Source: Pseudomonadota bacterium
Lineage (GTDB): Bacteria; Pseudomonadota; Alphaproteobacteria; Reyranellales; Reyranellaceae
Length of the DNA: 10,258 nucleotides
Assembly: GCA_023436825.1 (NCBI GenBank)
Contig: JAEZHS010000305.1
Coordinates: forward strand, 1 to 10,258
Direction: 5' to 3'
The position numbers were made by a program, and so were the translations under genes. Of this stretch, positions 912 through 10,258 are shown in pieces (position 1 is the first letter of the stretch; each line of letters begins with the position of its first letter). Under the pieces are notes generated by a model. It ran no database searches and was not told the origin of the DNA. It worked only from the letters and a program-made list of their open reading frames with translations.

Positions 912-2479
912 AGCGCGCGCTGGCCCGCATGCTGCTGCCCAGCCTCAAGGTCTGGGCGGGCTACGGCAGCGGCGGCTATACCGGCGGCGGCAGCCGCGGC
1001 TCGCTCGCGACCTTCCTGCCGCGCGCCGGCGGGCCGCGGTCGGACGCGATCCCGTCTCTGCCCAACCTGCGGGCGCGCAGCCGGGACCTCGACCGCAACA
1101 GCCCGCTTGCCACCGGCACGCTCGCGACCGTCACCACCAACGTGGTCGGCACCGGCATCTTCCCGATGGCGCGGCTCGACCCGATCCGGCTCGGCCTGGG
1201 GCCGGACAAGGCCGCGCAGATCGAGCTCGACCTCGGCTTCGAGTTCGACCTGTGGGCCGACGCCATCACGGCCGACGACACGCTCGAGCAGGACTTCTGG
1301 GGTCTGCAGGAGCTGGCGCTGCGCTCGCAGCTCTTGAGCGGCGATTGCTTCTCGGTGCCGCGCTACGACACCCGCGGCGCGTCGCCCTACGAGCTCGGCA
1401 TCGAGCTGATCGAGGCCGACCGCTGCTGCAACCCGACCGGCAAGATGGACGGCAGCATCATGCCGGGCGGCGCCGAGCTGATCGCCGGCGTCGAGGTCGA
1501 CCAGCGCGGCCGCGCCGTCGCCTACTGGTTCAGCGATCGCCACCCGGGTGAGGCGCTGCGCCGCTCGCTGCGCTGGCAGCGCCTGCCGGCATGGGGGCCG
1601 GGCGGCAACCGCGCGGTGTTCCATCACTTCCGCCGCCTGCGGCCCGGCCAGACGCGCGGTATCCCGTACTTCGCGCCGGTCATCAGCCTGTTCAAGGATC
1701 TCGGCCGCTACACCGACGCCGAGATCATGGCCGCGGTGCTGTCGGCCTGCTTCGCGTTGTCGACCACGGACGAGGCCGGAGACGGCGCCGACGTGCATGG
1801 CGCCGCCGATGCCGACGAGGTGCCGTCGGGCAACGGCGTCTCCGACCGCCTGCGCTTCTTCGAGCCCGGCCTGATGGCCAACCTCGCGGACCGGCAGAAG
1901 ATCGATTCCTTCCTGCCCAACCGGCCGAACCAGGCGTTCGATCCGTTCGTGCTCGCCATGCTGCGCCAGGTCGGCGTCGCGCTCGAGCTGCCCTACGAGG
2001 TGCTGGTCAAGCACTTCACCGCCTCCTACTCGGCGGCGCGCGCCGCGCTGCTCGAGGCGTGGAAGATGTTCCGCATGCGCCGCGCCTGGCTCGCGGCGTC
2101 GTTCTGCCAGCCGTACTACGAGCGCTGGCTGGTCGAGGCCTCGGCGCTCGGCCGGCCCGGCGTGCCCGACGTGTTCGGCGACTACGGCCGCTTCCGCGCC
2201 TGGTCGGCGTGCGAGTGGATCGGTCCGTCGCCCGGCCAGATCGACGAGCTGAAGGAGGCGCAGGCCGCCAAGCTGCGCGTCGACGAGGAGTTCTCCACGC
2301 GCGAGGAGGAGACGGCGCGACTGACCGGCGGCGACTGGCGGCAGAAGCATCGCCAGCGCGTGATCGAAGAGCGGCTGCGCCGGCAGGACGGCACGATCGC
2401 CGTGCCGTCGGCTGGCGTGCCCGCCGACAACGCGCAGCAGGATCCGCCGCAGAACCCGGACCAGAAGGAGGCCGCGTGA
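905..2479 (+). CDS. Phage portal protein, lambda gpB family (Phage_portal_2)
   Basis: The 524-residue portal forms the dodecameric ring at one capsid vertex through which the terminase pumps DNA. Family signatures are visible in order: LRARSRDLDRNSPLA and TTNVVGTGI near residues 55-85 (the conserved 'RSRDL.RN..a' and 'nvVGtGi' blocks), LLSGDCF, GIELIEADR, then GRAVAYWFSDRHPGE, the RPGQTRGIPYFAPVI block, the YTDAEIMAAVLSA helix, and the late WIGPSPGQIDELKEAQAAK segment. The acidic/basic C-terminal tail is typical. Length matches the family (about 500-550 aa). The ATG at 905 overlaps the gpW-like stop by 7 bases; GTG at 908 gives a 4-base GTGA overlap and is an equally possible start. The frame extends upstream to 710, but that part only shadows the gpW-like gene. 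The N-terminus has a Gly-rich stretch (residues 20-32) that is probably flexible. Confidence 0.93.
   Translation: MVKRALARMLLPSLKVWAGYGSGGYTGGGSRGSLATFLPRAGGPRSDAIPSLPNLRARSRDLDRNSPLATGTLATVTTNVVGTGIFPMARLDPIRLGLGPDKAAQIELDLGFEFDLWADAITADDTLEQDFWGLQELALRSQLLSGDCFSVPRYDTRGASPYELGIELIEADRCCNPTGKMDGSIMPGGAELIAGVEVDQRGRAVAYWFSDRHPGEALRRSLRWQRLPAWGPGGNRAVFHHFRRLRPGQTRGIPYFAPVISLFKDLGRYTDAEIMAAVLSACFALSTTDEAGDGADVHGAADADEVPSGNGVSDRLRFFEPGLMANLADRQKIDSFLPNRPNQAFDPFVLAMLRQVGVALELPYEVLVKHFTASYSAARAALLEAWKMFRMRRAWLAASFCQPYYERWLVEASALGRPGVPDVFGDYGRFRAWSACEWIGPSPGQIDELKEAQAAKLRVDEEFSTREEETARLTGGDWRQKHRQRVIEERLRRQDGTIAVPSAGVPADNAQQDPPQNPDQKEAA
2465..2470 (+). promoter_or_regulatory. Ribosome binding site fixing the GTG start of the protease
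   Basis: AAGGAG lies five bases before the GTG at 2476. The frame of the protease is open far upstream, including an ATG at 1591, but that extension only shadows the portal gene. This strong site, together with the GTGA overlap with the portal stop, decides for the GTG start. Confidence 0.8.
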
Positions 2480-3831
2480 CCGACCACGTACCGCTGCGCG
2501 TCCTCGACGCGCTGCTGACCCAGCAGTGGGCCATGCAGGAGGACTACCTGCGCGCCATGGTCGAGGTGGTGAACCGCGACCACGGTCCCGCGCTCGAGGC
2601 GCTGGCGGCGCGACGCGACAAGCCGCTCGACAACACTCATCGCACGACGGTGCGCGAGGGCGTCGCCATCGTGCCCGTCGTCGGGCCGCTGTTCCGCTAC
2701 GCCAACCTGTTCACCATGCTGAGCGGCGCCAGCTCGCTCGGCACGCTCGCCACCGACTTCCAGGCCGCGCTCGACGATCGGTCGGTGCGCGCCATCCTGC
2801 TGAACGTCGACAGCCCCGGTGGCGAGGTCAACGGCATCGCCGAAATGGCGTCGATGGTCATGGCCGCGCGCGGCCGCAAGAAGATCGCGGCGCACATCGG
2901 CCATTCCGGCGCCTCGGGGGCCTACTGGATCGCCTCGGCGGCCGAGCTGGTCACTGCCGCGCCGACCGCTCTGGTCGGCTCGGTGGGCGCCGTCATGACC
3001 ATTCGCGACACGCGCAAGATCGACGAGGCGCGCGGCATCCGCACGATCGAGATCGTGTCCAGCCAGTCGCCCGACAAGCGCGTCGATCCCGCGACCGATG
3101 CCGGCGTCGCCAAGCTGCAGCTGGTGGTCGACCGCATCGCCGAAGAGTTCGTGACTGCCGTCGCCCGCCAGCGCGGCGTCACGCCTGAGAAAGTCCTCGC
3201 CGACTTCGGCAAGGGCGGCCTGCTGGTCGGGGCGGACGCCGCCCGCGCCGGCATGGTCGACGGTGTGTCGACCTTCGAGAGCGTGTTGGCGTCGCTTGTT
3301 GCAGAGACCACGGGAGGCGGCGACCAGCGCCGGTCCTTCTTCACCTTCAGCACGGAGAAAGAGATGACTGTGATCACGACGGTGGCCGCGCTGCGGGCCG
3401 CCTATCCCGACCTCGTCGCCCAGATCGAGAAGGACGCCGCCACCACGGCGCGCGCCGAGGGCGAGACTGCCGGCAAGGCCGCAGGCATCGCCGAGGGCGA
3501 GAAGGCGGGCAAGGCCGCCGGCTTCGTCGAGGGCGCCACCGCCGAGCGTGCGCGCGTCGCCGGCATCCAGGCGCACCAGGTGCCGGGCACCGAGAAGCTG
3601 GTCGCCGAGATGGTGGCCGACGGCAAGACCACGCCCGACCAGGCCGCCGCGCGCATCCTGGGCGAGGTGAGGGCGCAGGGCCCGCGCGCGCTCGCCGCGT
3701 TGAAGACCGACGAGCCGCCGAAGACCGGCAGCGGCGCGACGGCGTCCGGCGGCGGCAGTGCTGACCTGTCCGCTTACGACAAGGGCCGCGTCATCGCCCT
3801 GCGCGCCAAGGGCAAAGAGGCGGCGGCGTAA
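2476..3831 (+). CDS. Capsid assembly protease, S49 (SppA/ClpP-like; lambda gpC type) with C-terminal scaffold region
   Basis: A 451-residue protease-scaffold protein that would act inside the procapsid, cleaving scaffold and portal during maturation. Residues about 60-275 form an S49 domain: EGVAIVPVVGPL, the oxyanion/turn motif NVDSPGGEV (110-118), and HSGASGAYWIAS (143-154), where Ser147 is the expected nucleophile. The candidate general-base lysine is Lys201 in SPDKRVDP, by analogy with SppA-type Ser/Lys dyads. Residues about 297-451 are a charged, Ala/Gly/Glu-rich helical region with AxG/EG repeats and the ATAERARVAGI segment, typical of the scaffold half of gpC-like proteins. The gene starts at GTG 2476 within a GTGA overlap with the portal stop. 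The scaffold part appears to be expressed separately as well, from an internal start at 3364 (see that entry). Identity is very likely; the catalytic assignments are inferred by motif. Confidence 0.92.
   Translation: MTDHVPLRVLDALLTQQWAMQEDYLRAMVEVVNRDHGPALEALAARRDKPLDNTHRTTVREGVAIVPVVGPLFRYANLFTMLSGASSLGTLATDFQAALDDRSVRAILLNVDSPGGEVNGIAEMASMVMAARGRKKIAAHIGHSGASGAYWIASAAELVTAAPTALVGSVGAVMTIRDTRKIDEARGIRTIEIVSSQSPDKRVDPATDAGVAKLQLVVDRIAEEFVTAVARQRGVTPEKVLADFGKGGLLVGADAARAGMVDGVSTFESVLASLVAETTGGGDQRRSFFTFSTEKEMTVITTVAALRAAYPDLVAQIEKDAATTARAEGETAGKAAGIAEGEKAGKAAGFVEGATAERARVAGIQAHQVPGTEKLVAEMVADGKTTPDQAAARILGEVRAQGPRALAALKTDEPPKTGSGATASGGGSADLSAYDKGRVIALRAKGKEAAA
3354..3357 (+). promoter_or_regulatory. 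Internal ribosome binding site for a nested scaffold protein
   Basis: GGAG at 3354-3357 is followed after six bases by an in-frame ATG at 3364. It lies inside the protease gene, at the junction between the protease domain and the scaffold-like C-terminal region. Position and spacing are those of a working translation start. Confidence 0.6.
3364..3831 (+). CDS. Nested capsid scaffold protein (Nu3-like), in frame with the protease
   Basis: The predicted 155-residue product is the C-terminal third of the protease polypeptide, made from an internal ATG in the same frame. In lambda, the scaffold Nu3 is produced this way from inside gene C and guides assembly of the major capsid protein before being removed. 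Here the internal ATG has a good ribosome binding site and starts exactly where the S49 domain ends. The product has the expected composition: an initial helix (TTVAALRAAYPDLVAQIEK), a long charged Ala/Glu/Lys-rich helical stretch with repeated A-G-x-A-x-G units, ATAERARVAGI, a predicted linker with PPKTGSGATASGGGS, and a short basic C-terminal helix (AYDKGRVIALRAKGKEAAA), which in scaffolds commonly contacts the capsid protein. Separate expression is inferred from sequence only. Confidence 0.62.
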   Translation: MTVITTVAALRAAYPDLVAQIEKDAATTARAEGETAGKAAGIAEGEKAGKAAGFVEGATAERARVAGIQAHQVPGTEKLVAEMVADGKTTPDQAAARILGEVRAQGPRALAALKTDEPPKTGSGATASGGGSADLSAYDKGRVIALRAKGKEAAA

Positions 3832-3876: not shown

Positions 3877-4518
3877 ATGGAAACCGCTACCTACGATCCC
3901 AACGGCCTGATGGCCGGCGACGAGGCGCCGCTGCAGCGTGCGATCACGCTGATCTCGGGCCAGAACCTGGCGCGCGGCGCGCTGCTCGGCCGCGTCACCG
4001 TCGGCTCCGCGAGCTCGGCCGCCAAGGCCGGCGGCAACACCGGCGGCGGCACGCTGACGCTCGACGGCACCACGCCGGTGCTGGCCGGCGCGAAGTCCGG
4101 CGTCTACACCGTGCGCTGCATCGCCGCCGCGAGCAACGCCGGCACCTTCCGGGTCGAGGATCCCGACGGCTTCGTCCTGGGCGACGTCGAGGTCGGCGCG
4201 ACCTTCGCCGACGACATCAAGTTCGTTCTCGCCGATGTCGGCACCGACTTCGCCGTCGGCGACGGCTTCGATGTCACCGTCGCAGCCGCCGACAAGTACA
4301 AGCTGTCGCTGTCTGCCGCGACCGACGGCTCGCAGGTCCCGGCCGCCGTGCTGGCGATCGACTGCGACGCCAGCCTCGCCGACAAGAGCACCACCGCCTT
4401 CTTCAGCGGCGAGTTCAACGGCGCGAAGATGACCTTCGGCGCCGGCCACACGGCATCGAGCGTGGAGGCGACCTTCCGGAAGGCGGGTGTGCCCATTGCA
4501 GTCAGGACGCTGCCCTAA
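3877..4518 (+). CDS. Head decoration protein, lambda gpD family, with inserted domain
   Basis: This 213-residue protein is the shell-stabilising decoration protein that binds the expanded capsid as trimers. The N-terminal 45 residues (GDEAPLQRAITLISGQNLARGALLGRVT) and C-terminal 75 residues (KYKLSLSAATDGSQVPAAVLAIDCD..., ending AVRTLP) make a complete gpD-like fold: start of life as an additive to the shell surface, with the 'G...P.AVL' and terminal hydrophobic strand blocks of the HDPD family. Residues about 52-137 are an extra beta-rich block (GGNTGGGTLTLDG..., GTFRVEDPDGFVLGDVEVG, TDFAVGDGFDVTVAA) absent from the roughly 110-residue lambda gpD. Similar blocks are familiar in phage decoration proteins. 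AAAGGA (3864-3869) precedes the ATG by seven bases. The gene sits directly before the major capsid gene, as in lambda. Confidence 0.85.
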   Translation: METATYDPNGLMAGDEAPLQRAITLISGQNLARGALLGRVTVGSASSAAKAGGNTGGGTLTLDGTTPVLAGAKSGVYTVRCIAAASNAGTFRVEDPDGFVLGDVEVGATFADDIKFVLADVGTDFAVGDGFDVTVAAADKYKLSLSAATDGSQVPAAVLAIDCDASLADKSTTAFFSGEFNGAKMTFGAGHTASSVEATFRKAGVPIAVRTLP

Positions 4519-4560: not shown

Positions 4561-5592
4561 ATGAATCTCTACGACACCCAGACCCTGCTCGGCATGATCG
4601 ACGCGCTCGACACGCCGCGCCGCTTCATGTTCGACTTGTACTTCAGCGCGGCGACGATCACCTTCGACACCGAGGAGATCCTGTTCGACCGCATCACGGC
4701 GTCGCGGCGCATCGCGCCCTATGTCTCGCCGCGGGTGGCGGGCAAGGCGCAGAGCCTGCGCGGGGCGACCTCGCGCTCCTACCGGCCGGCCTACGTCAAG
4801 CCCAAGGCGGTTGTGAACCCCGCCGCCGCGCTGAAGCGCCGCCCGGGCGAGCGCATCGGCGGCGAGATGTCTCCGGCCGACCGCTTCGACCGCATCCTGG
4901 TGCAGGAGCTCGAGGACCAGGACCTGCAGATCACGCGCCGCGAGGAGCTGATGGCGATCGAGATCTTGCGGACCGGCAAGCTGGTCGCCGAGTCGGCCGA
5001 GTTCGACAAGCTCGAGCTCGACTTCGATCGCCCGGCCGGCCACACGGTCGGCCTCACCTCGACCGACCGCTGGGGCGAGAGCGGCGTCAAGCCGCTGGCC
5101 AACATCAAGACCTGGGCGCAGACCGTGCACAACAACAGCGGTGCGCATCCCGGCCTGGTCATCTTCGATCCGCTGGCGGCCGGCCTCTTCCTGGCCGACC
5201 CCGACCTGGCCGCCATCCTCGACAATCGCCGCCAGGCCGACGGCAGCATGCAGCTCGCCGGCGCCGTCACCGGCGCGCAGGGCACCGAGGCGGTGCGGCT
5301 GGGCGCCATCGGCCAGTTCGAGTTCTGGCAGTACCAGCAGACCTACAAGGACGATTCCGGCGCCACCCAGAAGATGATGCCGGACTACACGGTCATCATG
5401 GGCTCGCCCGCCGGCTTCGAGGGCTATGCCTGCTACGGCGCCATCCAGGACGTCGACGCCCTGCAGGCCATGCCGCGCTTCCCCAAGATGTGGACGGAGA
5501 ACGATCCGTCCGTCGCCATGGTGATGACGCAGTCGGCGCCGCTGCCGGTGCCGGCGCGGGTCGATACGTCGTTCTGCGCGACCGTGCGGTAA
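4561..5592 (+). CDS. Major capsid protein, lambda gpE family
   Basis: The 343-residue shell protein matches lambda gpE in length (341) and in block order. Visible matches are the N-terminal 'LYDTQTLLGMI' helix, FDLYFSAATITFDTEEILFDRI, the YVSPRVAGKAQSLRG segment, YRPAYVKPKAVVNP (gpE has TPGYVKPKHEVNP), the ERIGGEMSPADRFDRILVQELEDQDLQITRREE helix region, IVIFDPLAAGLF-like strand (LVIFDPLAAGLF), LDNRR, the PDYTVIMGSPAGFEGYACYGAIQDVDA block (gpE: YGCIQDADA), PRFPKMWTENDPS, and the QSAPL strand near the C-terminus. It would adopt the HK97 fold, assemble on the scaffold and be expanded during packaging. The ribosome binding site is GAGAGG at 4550-4555, five bases before the ATG. Confidence 0.95.
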   Translation: MNLYDTQTLLGMIDALDTPRRFMFDLYFSAATITFDTEEILFDRITASRRIAPYVSPRVAGKAQSLRGATSRSYRPAYVKPKAVVNPAAALKRRPGERIGGEMSPADRFDRILVQELEDQDLQITRREELMAIEILRTGKLVAESAEFDKLELDFDRPAGHTVGLTSTDRWGESGVKPLANIKTWAQTVHNNSGAHPGLVIFDPLAAGLFLADPDLAAILDNRRQADGSMQLAGAVTGAQGTEAVRLGAIGQFEFWQYQQTYKDDSGATQKMMPDYTVIMGSPAGFEGYACYGAIQDVDALQAMPRFPKMWTENDPSVAMVMTQSAPLPVPARVDTSFCATVR

Positions 5593-5720: not shown

Positions 5721-6146
5721 ATGGCGTCCTATGTGAAGTTCCAGCCGTTCGTCGAGAACGTGTCCGAGAAGGTCCACAATCTCGGCGCCGATACGCTGAA
5801 GATCGCGCTGAGCAACACCGCGCCCAACGCGACCGACGCGACCTTCTCGCAGATCACCGAGATCTCGGCGGGCAACGGCTATACCGCGGGCGGCACCGCC
5901 GCCTCGATCTCGTCCTCGGCGCAGTCGTCTGGCACCTACAAGCTGGTGCTGGCCGACGTGGTGTTCACCGCGTCCGGCGGCACCATCGGGCCGTTCCGCT
6001 ACGTCATCCTCTACAACGACACGCCGACCTCGCCGGCCGATCCGCTGATCGCCTACTGGGATTACGGCTCGTCGATCACGCTCAACTCGGGCGAGACCTT
6101 CACCGCCGACATGGATGCCACCGCCGGCGTGCTGACTCTCGCCTAA
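5721..6146 (+). CDS. Conserved phage protein, beta-rich, probable virion component (141 aa)
   Basis: The sequence resembles a family of small phage proteins that I recognise only as conserved hypotheticals, with the pattern 'Y.kF..FvE.v.e.vHdL..dtlkiaLs...p' at the N-terminus (VKFQPFVENVSEKVHNLGADTLKIALSNTAP), TEISAGNGY, a Ser/Thr-rich middle, then SSGTYKLVLADVVFTASGGTIGPFRYVILYND and a final LIAYWDYGSSITL. The alternation of hydrophobic and polar residues predicts beta strands throughout, with no membrane segment or signal peptide. The family is usually found next to capsid or tail genes, so a structural role is inferred. The start is supported by AGGAG (5709-5713) seven bases upstream. The exact function is unknown. 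Confidence 0.75.
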   Translation: MASYVKFQPFVENVSEKVHNLGADTLKIALSNTAPNATDATFSQITEISAGNGYTAGGTAASISSSAQSSGTYKLVLADVVFTASGGTIGPFRYVILYNDTPTSPADPLIAYWDYGSSITLNSGETFTADMDATAGVLTLA

Positions 6147-6210: not shown

Positions 6211-6450
6211 ATGGGTATCAAAGACGACTGGCTCGCCGACTTCTGGAAGACCAAGGATGCGATCGACGCGCTCGACAAGAAGCTCGAGCCGATGATCGCC
6301 GCACGCGACAAGCTGCAGGCCGAGTTCGAGCCCAAGCTGCGTGACATGAACCAGGCGATCATGGAAGCCAAGGAGCCGCGCTACGAGCTGGCGCAGAAGC
6401 TCGCCATGCTCGCCAAGGCGCTGGGCGACAAGGTCGGCGAGCGGCCGTAG
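6211..6450 (+). CDS. Small charged coiled-coil protein, unknown function (79 aa)
   Basis: I do not recognise a family. The protein is almost wholly helical by composition, with heptad-like spacing of hydrophobics (WLADFWKTKDAIDALDKKLEPM, then IAARDKLQAEF and ELAQKLAMLAKALG) and many Lys/Glu/Asp residues, so a short coiled coil is likely. It has no signal peptide or membrane segment. GAGGA (6199-6203) sits seven bases before the ATG. It occupies the region between capsid and neck genes where lambda has FI, a packaging accessory factor, but there is no sequence reason to equate them. Conserved operon position and a good ribosome binding site make it a real gene; function is open. Confidence 0.7.
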   Translation: MGIKDDWLADFWKTKDAIDALDKKLEPMIAARDKLQAEFEPKLRDMNQAIMEAKEPRYELAQKLAMLAKALGDKVGERP

Positions 6451-6464
6451 GGGAGGGCAAGACG

Positions 6465-6731
6465 ATGGCCCTCTCCGTAGAAAAAGGCGAGCAGGCCGGC
6501 AGGCTCGCTGCCGCGATCCGATCGGCGGACGAAGCGCTTTCCGGCTTGAACACGAGGATCTCCGAAGGTGCGCAGATCACGAGCATGATCGCGCAGCTTG
6601 CGAACGGAAACACGGTGCGCGCCGAGATGCTGATGACTGCCGAGGAATCGGCCGAGGTCTTCACGGCCGTTCGCACCATCGTTCAGGCCAAGCGCAACGC
6701 GCTCGCGAACGCCCTGGCCGCCATCAACTGA
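6465..6731 (+). CDS. Small helical protein, unknown function (88 aa)
   Basis: Unrecognised. The composition is Ala/Glu/Arg-rich and predicts two or three amphipathic helices (GEQAGRLAAAIRSADEALSGL; ISEGAQITSMIAQLA; ESAEVFTAVRTIVQAKRNALA). It starts 14 bases after the previous stop, with GGAGGG (6452-6457) seven bases before the ATG, so it is probably co-translated with the 79-aa gene. Its codon use is visibly less GC-extreme than that of the capsid genes, marking the beginning of a lower-GC stretch that continues to about 8258. It may interact with its helical neighbour, but that is a guess from adjacency. Confidence 0.68.
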   Translation: MALSVEKGEQAGRLAAAIRSADEALSGLNTRISEGAQITSMIAQLANGNTVRAEMLMTAEESAEVFTAVRTIVQAKRNALANALAAIN

Positions 6732-6753: not shown

Positions 6754-7218
6754 ATGGCAATGTTTTCCGTCGCGATCTCTGACGTCGCCGTGACCCTCGT
6801 ACAGGACGTCTTCCACCTCAAAGCCGGGTCTACACGACCGATCATCATTCACGGTCTGGAGCTCGAGCAGAAGGGCCTCACCGCTGCCGAGGCGCTGGCC
6901 GTCAAGCTGAAGCGACATACCGCGACGGTGACGCAGGGCAGCGGCGGCAGCACGCCAACCCCGGCCGTGCTCGCTGGCGGGTCGGCATCGTCCGGCGTGA
7001 CGGCGCACGCCAACGACACCACGCGCGCCTCGGCGGGCACCATCACGACCCTGTTCGGCAAGACGTTTCAGTTGCTGAACGGCCTGATCTGGCTGCCGAC
7101 TCCGGAAATCCGGCCGATCATCGATCCGGCGACCGGCTTCATCGTCGAGCTGGCGACCGCCCCGTCCGCGAGCATGAACCTCTCGGGCTGGATCGTTTAC
7201 GAGGAAGTCGGGCTCTAG
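6754..7218 (+). CDS. Conserved phage protein, beta-rich, probable virion component (154 aa)
   Basis: This resembles a widespread group of phage conserved hypotheticals of about 140-160 residues: an N-terminal strand (FSVAISDVAVTLVQDVFHLKAG) and 'IIIHGLELEQKG', a middle with TVTQGSGGSTPTPAVL, 'ANDTT', then a C-terminal 'WLPTPEIRPIID' (the 'w.PtPe.rp.i.p' signature), TGFIVELATAP and a final 'GWIVYEE'. The pattern suggests a compact beta-sandwich, plausibly a capsid- or tail-associated decoration. No signal or membrane segment. GGGAG at 6739-6743 precedes the ATG by ten bases, and the next gene begins only two bases after the stop, pointing to tight coupling. Function is inferred from family habit and position only. 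Confidence 0.72.
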   Translation: MAMFSVAISDVAVTLVQDVFHLKAGSTRPIIIHGLELEQKGLTAAEALAVKLKRHTATVTQGSGGSTPTPAVLAGGSASSGVTAHANDTTRASAGTITTLFGKTFQLLNGLIWLPTPEIRPIIDPATGFIVELATAPSASMNLSGWIVYEEVGL

Positions 7219-7220
7219 CC

Positions 7221-8258
7221 GTGGCCAATCGTTACTGGCGCGGCGGGACCGGCACATGGGACCTCACCGACACCTCGCACTGGTCGACCACCAGCGGCGG
7301 GGCGGGCGGCGCGAGCGTTCCCACGAATGCCGATGCCGTCATCTTCGACAACAACTCGGGCACCGGAACGACAACCGTTAACGATTCCGTCGTCTGTGCC
7401 TCGCTGACGACGACCAGCTACAACGGCACCATCAGCATCGCCAACGGTCAGCGAATCACGGTAAGCGGCAATGTCACGATAGGCAGCGGCACGACTTGGA
7501 CGGTCGGGGGCGGTCATGCGCTGACGATCGATGGCACCTGTACCCTGACGAGCAACGGCAAGAACCTCGGCATTGTCGAGAGTTTCGGCGTCGCGGTGAC
7601 TCTCGCTGACGCGCTTACGGCGACCGGTTTCGGGTTGGGGTTCAGTCAATCTGGTGGGTCTTTCACCAGCGCGAATTTTGCGATCAACACCGACAAGTTC
7701 GTGGTCCTTTCCGGGTCAATCGACCTGGGCACGTCGACCGTGACCCTCACAGATGGCGATTTCGCCAATAACGCCGACGGCACTTCGACCACGGCGAGCG
7801 CCACGGTCAAGATGAACATAACCAACTCCGGCGGGCGGGAATTCGACGGCGGCGGATACTCCTACAGCAAGGTATGGATGACCGGCGCCGGAAGCGGCGC
7901 GCATTCCACGCGCGGCGACAACACCATCGGCGAGCTGCAAATCGACGCGCGCACCGGCGGTCGCGTCGTCAATTTCCGGCGCAGCACCACGAACACGATC
8001 ACCACCATCACTTGCGCCGGGATGGCCGGCAACCTCACGACGCTGCAATCGAGCGTCGCTGGAACGCCGTTTACGCTGTCCAAGAGCTCGGGCGCCGTCG
8101 CAGTCGACTATTGCAACATCATCGACAGCACAGCCGCCGGCGGCGCGACGTTCAAAGCCACCCGTTCGATCGATGGCGGCGGCAACACCGGCTGGATTTT
8201 CGTGACAGCGGCAGGCGCTCCCCCACGCGCCGCACGGGCCACCTATCTGAGGATGTAA
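7221..8258 (+). CDS. Gly/Ser/Thr-rich beta-helix-like phage protein, candidate fibre or adhesin (345 aa)
   Basis: The N-terminus (RYWRGGTGTWDLTDTSHWS, then TTSGGAGGASVPTNADAVIFD) is a module I recognise from large phage and bacterial surface or virion proteins with parallel beta-helix repeats. The middle 250 residues are rich in Gly, Ser, Thr and Asn, with short alternating strands such as GTISIANGQRITVSGNVTIG and SGSIDLGTSTVTLTDG, as in beta-helices. The C-terminal region near residues 295-328 has the DYCNIIDSTAAGGATF...DGGGNTGWIF block that commonly ends such proteins. The start is GTG, two bases after the previous stop; the nearest SD-like GAGGAAG (7201-7207) is 13 bases away, so translation may depend on coupling. 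A role as a head or neck fibre, or glycan-binding component, is inferred. Confidence 0.75.
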   Translation: MANRYWRGGTGTWDLTDTSHWSTTSGGAGGASVPTNADAVIFDNNSGTGTTTVNDSVVCASLTTTSYNGTISIANGQRITVSGNVTIGSGTTWTVGGGHALTIDGTCTLTSNGKNLGIVESFGVAVTLADALTATGFGLGFSQSGGSFTSANFAINTDKFVVLSGSIDLGTSTVTLTDGDFANNADGTSTTASATVKMNITNSGGREFDGGGYSYSKVWMTGAGSGAHSTRGDNTIGELQIDARTGGRVVNFRRSTTNTITTITCAGMAGNLTTLQSSVAGTPFTLSKSSGAVAVDYCNIIDSTAAGGATFKATRSIDGGGNTGWIFVTAAGAPPRAARATYLRM

Positions 8259-8262
8259 CGCC

Positions 8263-10176
8263 ATGGCGCGCATGGTCTTCCGGCCGCGGAGCCTGGTGCC
8301 GACGGTCAACCGCGCCGCGCGCCGCGTTCGGCCGATCGGCACGAGAAGGCTTGCGCTCGGCGCTGGCGCCTACACCTACACCGGCGTCGCCGTCACCCTG
8401 AAGATCGGCCGCGCCGTCATCGCCAATGCCGGCAGCTACGCGCTGAGTGGGCAGGCGGTGGCGCTGAAGACGGCCCGGCGCATCGCCTGCGACCCCGGCA
8501 GCTATGTCCTTACCGGCCAGCCGCTCGGCCTCACGGCAACGCGCACCATGGCCGCCAATGCCGGCGCCTACACGCTGACCGGCCGCGACGTCGGCCTGAT
8601 CTACGGCGCGGGCTTCGGCATGGAGTCGGGCACCTATGTGCTGACCGGCCAGACCGTGACGTTGTCCTGGGTGCGGCCGCTGGCGCTCGACGCCGGCGCC
8701 TATGCCTACACCGGCCAGGCGGTGGCCTTCCCACGCACCTTCCGCCTCGAGGCGGGGACCGGCGCCTACACGCTCGCTGGCCAGACGGTCGCCTTGCGCA
8801 CCACCCGCCCGATGTCGATGGGCCACGGCGCCTACACTCTCGCGATCCAGAACCTCAACGCACTCGCCACCTTCATCGGCACGCTGGGGGCGGGCGGCTA
8901 TGCCTATGCCGGCAAGGACGTGATCTTGACCAAGACGCGGCCGATCGCCATGGCGACCGGCAACTATGCCCTGGGCGGCCAGCCGGTCGCGCTGCGCGCG
9001 GTGCGCACCATGGCCATGGCGGCCGGGTCCTACGTCTACACCGGCGAGGATGCGATCCTGCAGCGGACCTATCCGCTGCCGCTCGACACCGTCGCCTATG
9101 CGCTCGCCGGCCAGGCCGTCGGCCTCGCCGCGACGCGCACCGTTCCGCTCGGGGTCGGTGTCCATGTGCTGGCGGGCAAGCCGGTGGCGCTGCTGGCGGC
9201 GCGCACGCTGGGGCTTGGCGCCGGGGCTTATGCGCTGTCGGGCCAGGCGGTCGGCCTCACGGCGACCCGCACCCTGCCGCTGCTGGCCGGTGTCTATCTC
9301 TACACCGGCCGCGATCTCGGCGTGCTGGCGGCGCGGCTGCTGGCGCTCGGCGCCGGTGCCCACGACTACACCGGTCAGGCGATCGACCTGCGCGCCGTAC
9401 GCACAATGGCGGTCGGCGCTGGCCCTTATCAGTTGGCCGGCCGGCCGGTGGCACTGACGGTCGGGCACGCGCTCGGTCTCGACGCCGGCGCATACGACCT
9501 GACAGGGAACGATGCCGTCCTGGTGCGCGGCAAGCAGCTGACCTTGGACGTGGGCCTGTTCGCGCTGGCGGGACAGGACGCAATCCTTCAAGCCGTGCGC
9601 TTCCTCGCGCTTGATGCTGGCGAGCATGTCTACACCGGCAACGACGTCGATCTGCTGCACACGCGGCCGATCGAGATCGGCGCCGGCACCTATGCGCTCA
9701 GCGGCCAGGATGTCGGCTTCTCACACCTGTTCAGGATCGCGCTCGACGGCGGCGCCTATGCCCTGACGGTCGGCGACCTGCGCACGGTCCGCGACCTGAT
9801 CATGCCGCTCGATGCCGGCGCCTACGTGCTGACCGGCGGCGCCCTCCAGCGCATCGTCACGCGGCACGGCGCCGAGGATCTCGATGACCTGCTGGTCTTC
9901 TTCAATGAGGAGGAGTTCGGCGTCACAGCGACCTGGTCGCGCGGCGGAGTCGACCTGCTCGACGTGCCCGGGCTGTTCAATCGGCCGAGCAGCGACGACA
10001 CCATGGGCGGGCAGGTGGCGTTCACCGCCACCAACCCGACCTTCGCCTGCCCGGCGATCCTGGTGCAGGGCATGCGCCAGGGCGACGGGCTCAAGGTCCG
10101 TGGCGCCGAGCTGCGCGTGCGGCAGGTAAGGCCGGACGGGACGGGCATCGCACGACTGACACTCGAGGCGGCATGA
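8263..10176 (+). CDS. Head-tail joining (gpFII-like) protein fused to 23 tandem 22-residue repeats (637 aa)
   Basis: The protein has three parts. Residues 1-27 are basic (seven Arg). Residues 28-533 are 23 uninterrupted 22-residue repeats. Residues 534-637 align by eye with lambda gpFII, the protein that completes the filled head and provides the site for tail attachment: GVTATWSRGG against gpFII GTSATITSGE, then 'PGLFNRP' against 'RGVFDDP', 'MRQGDGLKVRG' against 'LRRGDTLTIGE', and 'VRQVRPDGTGIARLTL' against 'VDRVSPDDGGSCHLWL'. Lambda gpFII is about 117 aa, so the repeat section is an addition of about 500 residues. Start at ATG 8263 with GAGGA (8249-8253) nine bases upstream, four bases after the previous stop; the stop overlaps the next start (ATGA). 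No signal or transmembrane segment. The repeats probably form a beta-solenoid or fibre attached to the neck; that function is inferred. Confidence 0.8.
   Translation: MARMVFRPRSLVPTVNRAARRVRPIGTRRLALGAGAYTYTGVAVTLKIGRAVIANAGSYALSGQAVALKTARRIACDPGSYVLTGQPLGLTATRTMAANAGAYTLTGRDVGLIYGAGFGMESGTYVLTGQTVTLSWVRPLALDAGAYAYTGQAVAFPRTFRLEAGTGAYTLAGQTVALRTTRPMSMGHGAYTLAIQNLNALATFIGTLGAGGYAYAGKDVILTKTRPIAMATGNYALGGQPVALRAVRTMAMAAGSYVYTGEDAILQRTYPLPLDTVAYALAGQAVGLAATRTVPLGVGVHVLAGKPVALLAARTLGLGAGAYALSGQAVGLTATRTLPLLAGVYLYTGRDLGVLAARLLALGAGAHDYTGQAIDLRAVRTMAVGAGPYQLAGRPVALTVGHALGLDAGAYDLTGNDAVLVRGKQLTLDVGLFALAGQDAILQAVRFLALDAGEHVYTGNDVDLLHTRPIEIGAGTYALSGQDVGFSHLFRIALDGGAYALTVGDLRTVRDLIMPLDAGAYVLTGGALQRIVTRHGAEDLDDLLVFFNEEEFGVTATWSRGGVDLLDVPGLFNRPSSDDTMGGQVAFTATNPTFACPAILVQGMRQGDGLKVRGAELRVRQVRPDGTGIARLTLEAA
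8344..9861 (+). repeat. 23 tandem 66-bp coding repeats (22 residues each)
   Basis: Twenty-three direct repeats of exactly 66 bp, all in frame and with no insertion or deletion. Consensus by position: 1 Arg, 3 Leu/Met, 5 Leu/Met/Ala, 7 Ala, 8 Gly, 9 Ala/Ser, 10 Tyr, 12 Leu or Tyr, 13 Thr/Ser/Ala, 14 Gly, 15 Gln/Arg/Asn, 17 Val, 19 Leu, 22 Thr/Val. Position 8 is Gly in 22 of 23 units, position 14 is Gly in 21, and position 10 is Tyr in 19 (His or Phe in the other four). No two units are identical in protein sequence. Units 8 and 22 are the most degenerate. A local 'YxYTG' variant occurs in units 1, 6, 11, 15, 16 and 20 without a strict period. Confidence 0.95.
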
Positions 10177-10258
10177 CACACGTGAGGACCCTGCTTCGCC
10201 GCCGCGCCAAGGCGCTGCTGGACGGCATCGCCACCGTCTTCGTCGGCCGCACCTGGCC
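10173..10258 (+). CDS. Probable tail terminator protein (3'-truncated)
   Basis: Only the first 28 codons are present. The ATG lies in an ATGA overlap with the preceding stop, so translation is likely coupled. The N-terminus (HVRTLLRRRAKALLDGIATVF, then VGRTW) follows the pattern 'R..l..a...aL.Gl.tv..sR.yp' seen in tail terminator proteins of the lambda gpU/HK97 gp10 type and in related minor tail proteins. A tail terminator or tail-completion gene is expected right after the neck gene in lambda-like gene order. The fragment is too short for a firm call. Confidence 0.5.
   Translation, partial: MTHVRTLLRRRAKALLDGIATVFVGRTW

Follow-up and report, generated by a model that had tools for sequence, protein, structure and literature searches.

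A phage stopper ring protein that appears to carry a built-in, repetitive and probably rod-shaped arm

In phage lambda, six copies of gpFII form the stopper ring of the neck, and their N-terminal helices build a ring into which the adaptor barrel rests (PMC10721106). In R4C, the N-terminal helix of the stopper contacts loops of the adaptor via D7 and D13 (PMC10276861). Neck fibres made as separate proteins are already known, such as T4 whiskers, phi29 gp12 and XM1 gp40 (PMC10491603), and the lactococcal neck passage structures (NPSs) show that an appendage at the neck can bear modules for sugar binding, can attach to cells weakly and need not be essential (PMC6669499, PMC4493119). The literature searched, with subscription journals mostly outside its coverage, contained no description of an FII or stopper protein with a built-in repeat arm. 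The DNA considered here is a stretch of 10,258 nucleotides from a Pseudomonadota bacterium of the Reyranellaceae (contig JAEZHS010000305.1 of assembly GCA_023436825.1; hereafter the window). An open reading frame (ORF) at positions 8263-10176 of its forward strand, on which all genes of the window named below also lie, has an ATG start and encodes a 637 aa fusion protein that appears to be a phage stopper ring protein with a repetitive, probably rod-shaped arm of its own. The preferred reading, held at a probability of roughly 0.6, is that this is the stopper subunit of a siphovirus-like phage with an N-terminal 23-turn β-helical arm, that six such arms would surround each neck, and that together they would make up an accessory, adhesive, glycan-holding collar.

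The chain begins with a basic leader (residues 1-27, positions 8263-8343) predicted to be disordered, with a predicted local distance difference test (pLDDT) value <50 over residues 1-26. It continues with 23 tandem 22-residue repeats of the pattern R..L.L..G.Y.LTGQ.V.L... (residues 28-533, positions 8344-9861), a short linker between repeats and stopper domain (residues 534-536, positions 9862-9870) and the gpFII-type stopper, or head closure (Hc1), domain (residues 537-637, positions 9871-10173), followed by the stop codon at 10174-10176. The identity of the C-terminal domain is supported by sequence profiles, structure searches and fold. Pfam PF05354 (Phage_attach) matches residues 541-633 (E 5.4e-15; 56.2 bits, the cut-off being 26) and PHROG_82 (head closure Hc1) matches residues 544-636 (E 3.1e-14). 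Seven relatives emerged from a tblastn search of phage records, at 26-30% identity; all are head-tail joining proteins that stand alone and come from phages of Rhodobacter and Roseobacter. The start methionines of stand-alone FII relatives align at about residue 537, and the full FII length is retained in the fusion. With a profile built without the lambda or RcCronus rows, a search of solved structures matched the R4C stopper at 3.7e-12 and lambda gpFII at 9.9e-6; with the domain sequence alone, R4C was matched at 7e-6 and lambda only at 0.1. The AlphaFold model of the domain, confident from about residue 547 onward, has the β-barrel fold of stoppers, and the structures that fit it best are all stoppers, namely that of lambda (FII, two neck entries), that of R4C and some others. 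The N-terminal segment that folds onto the adaptor in known stoppers aligns in the window domain, but the model has pLDDT <50 there; its acidic character is kept (D542, N548 and neighbouring acids, in the alignment from the structure search with the domain alone). A preliminary description of this DNA, made from the letters alone, had named a gpFII-like C-terminal domain of 104 residues. Profiles, solved-structure search and fold all agree with that identity, and the structural comparison that it had proposed matched lambda gpFII and the R4C stopper instead of leaving the domain without a counterpart; the length is to be shortened to about 101 residues, with a start at about residue 537.

The repeat array is as regular as had been claimed in that description, with 23 exact copies and no insertion. 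The 22-residue period is far above chance: for offsets of 22, 44 and 66 residues, the mean BLOSUM62 self-match is 1.28, 1.44 and 1.30, respectively, whereas 300 shuffled sequences did not exceed -0.35. Between copies, mean pairwise identity is 36% at the protein level and 52% at the DNA level, with Gly8, Tyr10 and Gly14 of the unit almost invariant and showing few non-synonymous differences (pN 0.04, 0.12 and 0.13). Tandem Repeats Finder listed no DNA-level tandem array at the repeat region, so that the array is old and not recently duplicated. Scored against a profile built from the repeats of other proteins, the window repeats reach 449.6 bits, compared with 3.1 for the best of 50 shuffles. 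Their predicted structure is a parallel β-helix, all β and lacking any helix of ≥4 residues, a model that agrees with the earlier guess of a probable β-solenoid. A solved-structure search with the repeat sequence returned nothing significant. As a separate observation, residues 325-385 weakly match PHROG_17327, annotated ‘head-tail connector protein’ (E 0.0062), a match that may mark another neck fusion.

The joining of repeats and FII domain in one chain looks genuine. It is very improbable that the long frame is an assembly or sequencing artefact, or belongs to a decaying prophage in which a repeat gene and an FII gene run into each other because a stop codon has been lost, even if one copy only of this exact fusion was found. 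Third-position G+C through the junction is 0.92, 0.87 and 0.88, and codon-position G+C is alike in repeats and domain; because the third-position value holds at 0.87-0.92 across the junction, the fusion looks real. This continuity stands against a contrast set of over-cut-off long PF05354 frames elsewhere, in which, of the three codon positions, the third has the lowest G+C in the part upstream of FII in all 14 tested. Among further over-cut-off long frames besides L144 (L numbers are locus handles), the same low third position is seen in five of six (L093, L095, L100, L115 and L123; not L120). The codon-position test is undecided for L120 and for L144, itself over the cut-off, both having a Met or Val start-like position near the domain. 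Two further features argue against an accident: only about three residues separate the last repeat from the FII domain, so that no remnant of a tail is left between them, and the same layout, with another neck protein, occurs in two podovirus records.

A genuine fusion could still yield a ring with few or no arms, if the arm were removed after synthesis or the stopper were made from an internal start, the repeat piece then being a free decoration protein. This is unlikely. An S49-type prohead protease is indeed encoded at 2473-3831, the repeat protein is a separate chain in most relatives, and two in-frame starts precede the domain, an ATG at residue 514 and a GTG at residue 522, the nearest among those listed for residues 430-559. 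Against an internal start, neither has a purine-rich ribosome site in the 20 bases upstream, and no in-frame ATG, GTG or TTG occurs between residues 523 and 559.

In gene order, a lambda-type block of head genes opens the window and is separated by five ORFs from the fusion ORF of 637 codons. The head block comprises a lambda-type portal protein (gpB; 899-2479, PF05136, E 3.7e-92), the S49 head protease (gpC-type; 2473-3831, PF01343, E 3e-20), a head decoration protein (gpD-type; 3877-4518, PF02924, E 1.6e-10) and a lambda-type major capsid protein (gpE; 4561-5592, PF03864, E 5.8e-60). Within the protease ORF lies a 36-base DNA tandem repeat of 2.3 copies (3453-3535), encoding AEGEKAGKAAG-type residues. 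The five ORFs start with a PHROG_644 protein of 141 aa (5721-6146), whose gene generally accompanies the repeat gene in other phages. It is followed by a small companion ORF of 79 aa (6211-6450) with homologs in three repeat loci, an unassigned small ORF of 88 aa (6465-6731), a companion ORF of 154 aa (6754-7218) with homologs in two repeat loci (L001, L066) and a companion ORF of 345 aa (7221-8258), which starts MANRYWRGGTGTWD and has homologs in four. The last gives the impression of being β-helix-like in character; solved-structure searches with it and with the PHROG_644 protein returned nothing significant. On the 3′ side, the next gene (10173-10258, cut by the window end) overlaps the fusion gene by 4 nt in an ATGA and has a tail terminator (gpU)-like start: its 28 visible residues share 32% identity with the N-terminus of the gpU-like protein of CRP-406 (E 0.002, in a comparison with only three subject proteins). 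With lambda-type capsid genes upstream and a gpU-like gene start overlapping its end, the fusion gene occupies the FII position, as had been claimed earlier.

The repeats belong to a large family. A protein search that scored 7992 candidates gave 272 matches, of which 120 were listed, so that the repeat is shared with at least 272 database proteins and not confined to this phage. Many relatives carry lectin-type or carbohydrate-binding domains, among the repeat proteins covered by domain scans of the 120 listed (Pfam 48, PHROG 58). The protein encoded at L069:3806-12118 is of virion type and 2770 residues long, and contains no fewer than 42 detected copies of the repeat with other domains among them. 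A plasmid search gave no match.

At least 53 repeat loci were sampled; clustering at 70% identity, with 70% of the shorter chain covered, reduces them to 37. Of the 53, 40 contain a PHROG_644 homolog (47-76% identity), which in 39 loci precedes the repeat gene on its own strand, at a median distance of 2.1 kb, and in one lies downstream. By cluster the count is 29 of 37; the companion is thus frequent, not universal. None of 34 loci chosen for a related capsid protein has PHROG_644, and in the loci of the nearest capsid relatives (L005-L008, 64-69% identity) the capsid gene is followed by different genes, with no repeat gene among them. Since the companions track repeat loci and the capsid relatives are devoid of the repeat gene, the repeat part probably came with the cassette and the capsid separately. 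Approached from PHROG_644, the cassette idea fares less well: five of 385 genomes of one class have a homolog, and a repeat gene occurs only in L051, the other four (29-39% identity) having no profile-recognised repeat gene within 12-18 kb. Likewise, Pam1 and MW202738 have PHROG_644 without a clear repeat array (MW202738 has one stretch of 24 bits). Because homologs occur without a recognisable repeat gene, the PHROG_644 family is wider than the repeats. PHROG_644, whose annotated function is unknown, also corresponds to gp9 of cyanophage Pam1, between virion genes. Beside it, the N-terminus of Pam1 gp10 (L124:8272-9003) seems by eye to have two units 22 residues apart, and is not among the best hits of the repeat profile.

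Repeat genes also meet other neck genes. In podoviruses MW202473 (L125:9445-11706, 753 aa) and MW202478 (L126:9433-11391, 652 aa), a period-22 array precedes a C-terminal tail tubular protein A (PHROG_394, E 1e-35 and 3e-36, respectively). Both fusion genes adjoin a PHROG_644 gene, and their products, which align at 34% over 89%, have 420-520 extra N-terminal residues. The known-repeat profile gives the array of L125 20.9 bits, compared with 3.8 for the highest-scoring of 50 shuffled versions. The records are labelled only tail tubular protein A, the fusion being unremarked, and a search for further fusions of this kind found the query itself only. The earlier remark that a neck protein of this architecture is not known to have been described stands for the FII fusion, no other having been found, and has to be qualified for the general layout, as two podoviruses fuse a period-22 array to a different neck protein.

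Unfused repeat genes were followed downstream as well; their downstream genes are assigned in part, and a neck-side position is established for L001, L059, L060, L062 and L067. In podovirus MW202572 (L001), a separate repeat gene and an unfused gene for tail tubular protein A share a single base, the last of the former and the first of the latter. In the HK97-type neck blocks of L059, L060, L062 and L067, the product of the adjoining gene is a head-tail adaptor (PHROG_442, with E values from 5e-18 to 2e-34); Hc1 (PHROG_25) comes next and, where scanned, Neck1 (PHROG_5) and terminator (PHROG_347) after it. In L059 and L062 there is an overlap of 4 bases between genes. Gene lengths in L061 are identical to those in L060, from which its neck-side position is taken. 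Beyond the fusions, there are five distinct arrangements with the repeat gene directly upstream of neck genes. From fusions and adjacencies together, the repeat gene is joined to, or placed against, at least three kinds of neck gene (FII, tail tubular protein A and adaptor-Hc1). It is possible, if on balance doubtful, that the widespread and mostly unnamed 22-residue LTGQ-repeat proteins constitute a portable class of neck (collar) adhesins of siphoviruses and podoviruses, docked as separate chains or, in the present phage and the two podoviruses, within a ring protein. The TP901-1 NPS is encoded 3′ of the baseplate genes, resides at the portal vertex and is non-essential (PMC6669499, PMC4493119); given this gene order, a tail-side gene position of unfused repeat proteins is compatible with a neck location.

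As to the role of the arm, the C-terminal domain, like its counterparts in lambda and R4C, would assemble into a ring of six subunits that lies between the adaptor and the tail terminator. The repeats being attached just before the adaptor-contacting segment, six β-helical rods would leave the neck at the level of the adaptor. A β-helix rises by 0.48 nm per turn. With 23 turns, each arm would be ~11 nm long, so that the several long appendages around the neck envisaged in the preliminary description would be of modest length. Most likely, the collar would make weak, multivalent contacts with glycans of the cell surface for as long as the tail tip is searching for its receptor. From these genes, it may be inferred that the arms sit on the virion at the neck, number six, point outwards and bind glycans. 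It is quite unlikely that they are instead structural and not adhesive, serving as a clamp or collar to make the head-tail joint more rigid or to pass on a signal for DNA release. Such a function has precedents, as the Milano collar strengthens the neck without fibres (PMC10491603) and the Ig-like domain of the R4C adaptor is held by its authors to serve local stability, not adsorption (PMC10276861). Adhesion is favoured over stiffening by the lectin-type and carbohydrate-binding domains of repeat relatives and by the folds that VIA-align places nearest to the repeat model, which include sugar-binding or sugar-cleaving β-helices.

Several observations weigh against the proposed adhesive collar. 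The FII model has low confidence at residues 490-546 and therefore does not show how the arm joins the ring, and with a threshold of E 0.001 Foldseek found no PDB match to the repeat model. Most of the repeat proteins are not fused to a neck protein, in L004, L054 and L057 its gene lies after tail genes or before terminase, and the L126 array is not distinguishable from shuffles with the general repeat profile (7.1 bits against 6.8). No second FII fusion was established either, the preliminary description having proposed a search for further proteins that pair the repeat with an FII-like domain. A protein search restricted to the FII region of the full-length chain yielded 213 candidates, none of which reached E 0.001, and the FII profile found no fusion among the 120 listed repeat proteins (best E 0.29). 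PF05354 had 40 matches in 33 of the 385 genomes of one class (nine open frames ≥190 aa, seven inspected) and 87 matches in 55 of 398 genomes of the phylum (27 such frames, 22 inspected), and none of the inspected frames was established as a fusion.

The candidates set aside in these searches are of several kinds. The over-cut-off long PF05354 frames look like out-of-frame upstream sequence before an ordinary FII, and L054 has a stand-alone FII preceded by an open frame. Seven sub-cut-off frames (L122, L168-L172 and L174) are by eye unrelated secreted or adhesin-like proteins, L173 being similar, and the FII-profile matches in L043 and L045 reflect profile drift onto tail-fibre-like repeats.

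Neck appendages are known from only a few phages, in which they are separate proteins. If the adhesive-collar reading is correct, a stopper with its own arm would fix the number and place of neck appendages, and the fusion points to where a large uncharacterised phage repeat family may sit on the particle. With regard to phage engineering in laboratory systems, the fusion suggests that the N-terminus of a stopper may tolerate so large an addition.

Compared with known gpFII-type stoppers (lambda gpFII, R4C stopper; PF05354, PHROG_82), the window domain is alike in profile, fold, gene position and acidic N-terminal segment; those in this analysis are stand-alone proteins of ~100-125 residues, whereas 536 residues precede the domain here. 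The tail tubular protein A fusions of MW202473 and MW202478 share with it the period-22 array before a C-terminal neck protein and the PHROG_644 neighbour, and differ in the neck protein (PHROG_394), an extra N-terminal domain and diverged repeats. From the β-helices of Cthe_2159 and of two-partner-secretion adhesins (EtpA, FHA), the window repeats are set apart by the strict 22-residue period, the phage context and the lack of a significant Foldseek match. The NPS architecture (BppU-like domain, trimeric coiled coil and carbohydrate-binding module) had no Pfam or PHROG match in the window protein, and the two are likened in role only. The NPSs of TP901-1 and 936 phages, T4 whiskers, phi29 gp12 and XM1 gp40 resemble the proposed arms as accessory neck appendages with carbohydrate-binding parts; in contrast, they are separate proteins bound to the neck, while the window arm lies within the ring protein and is predicted to be all β.
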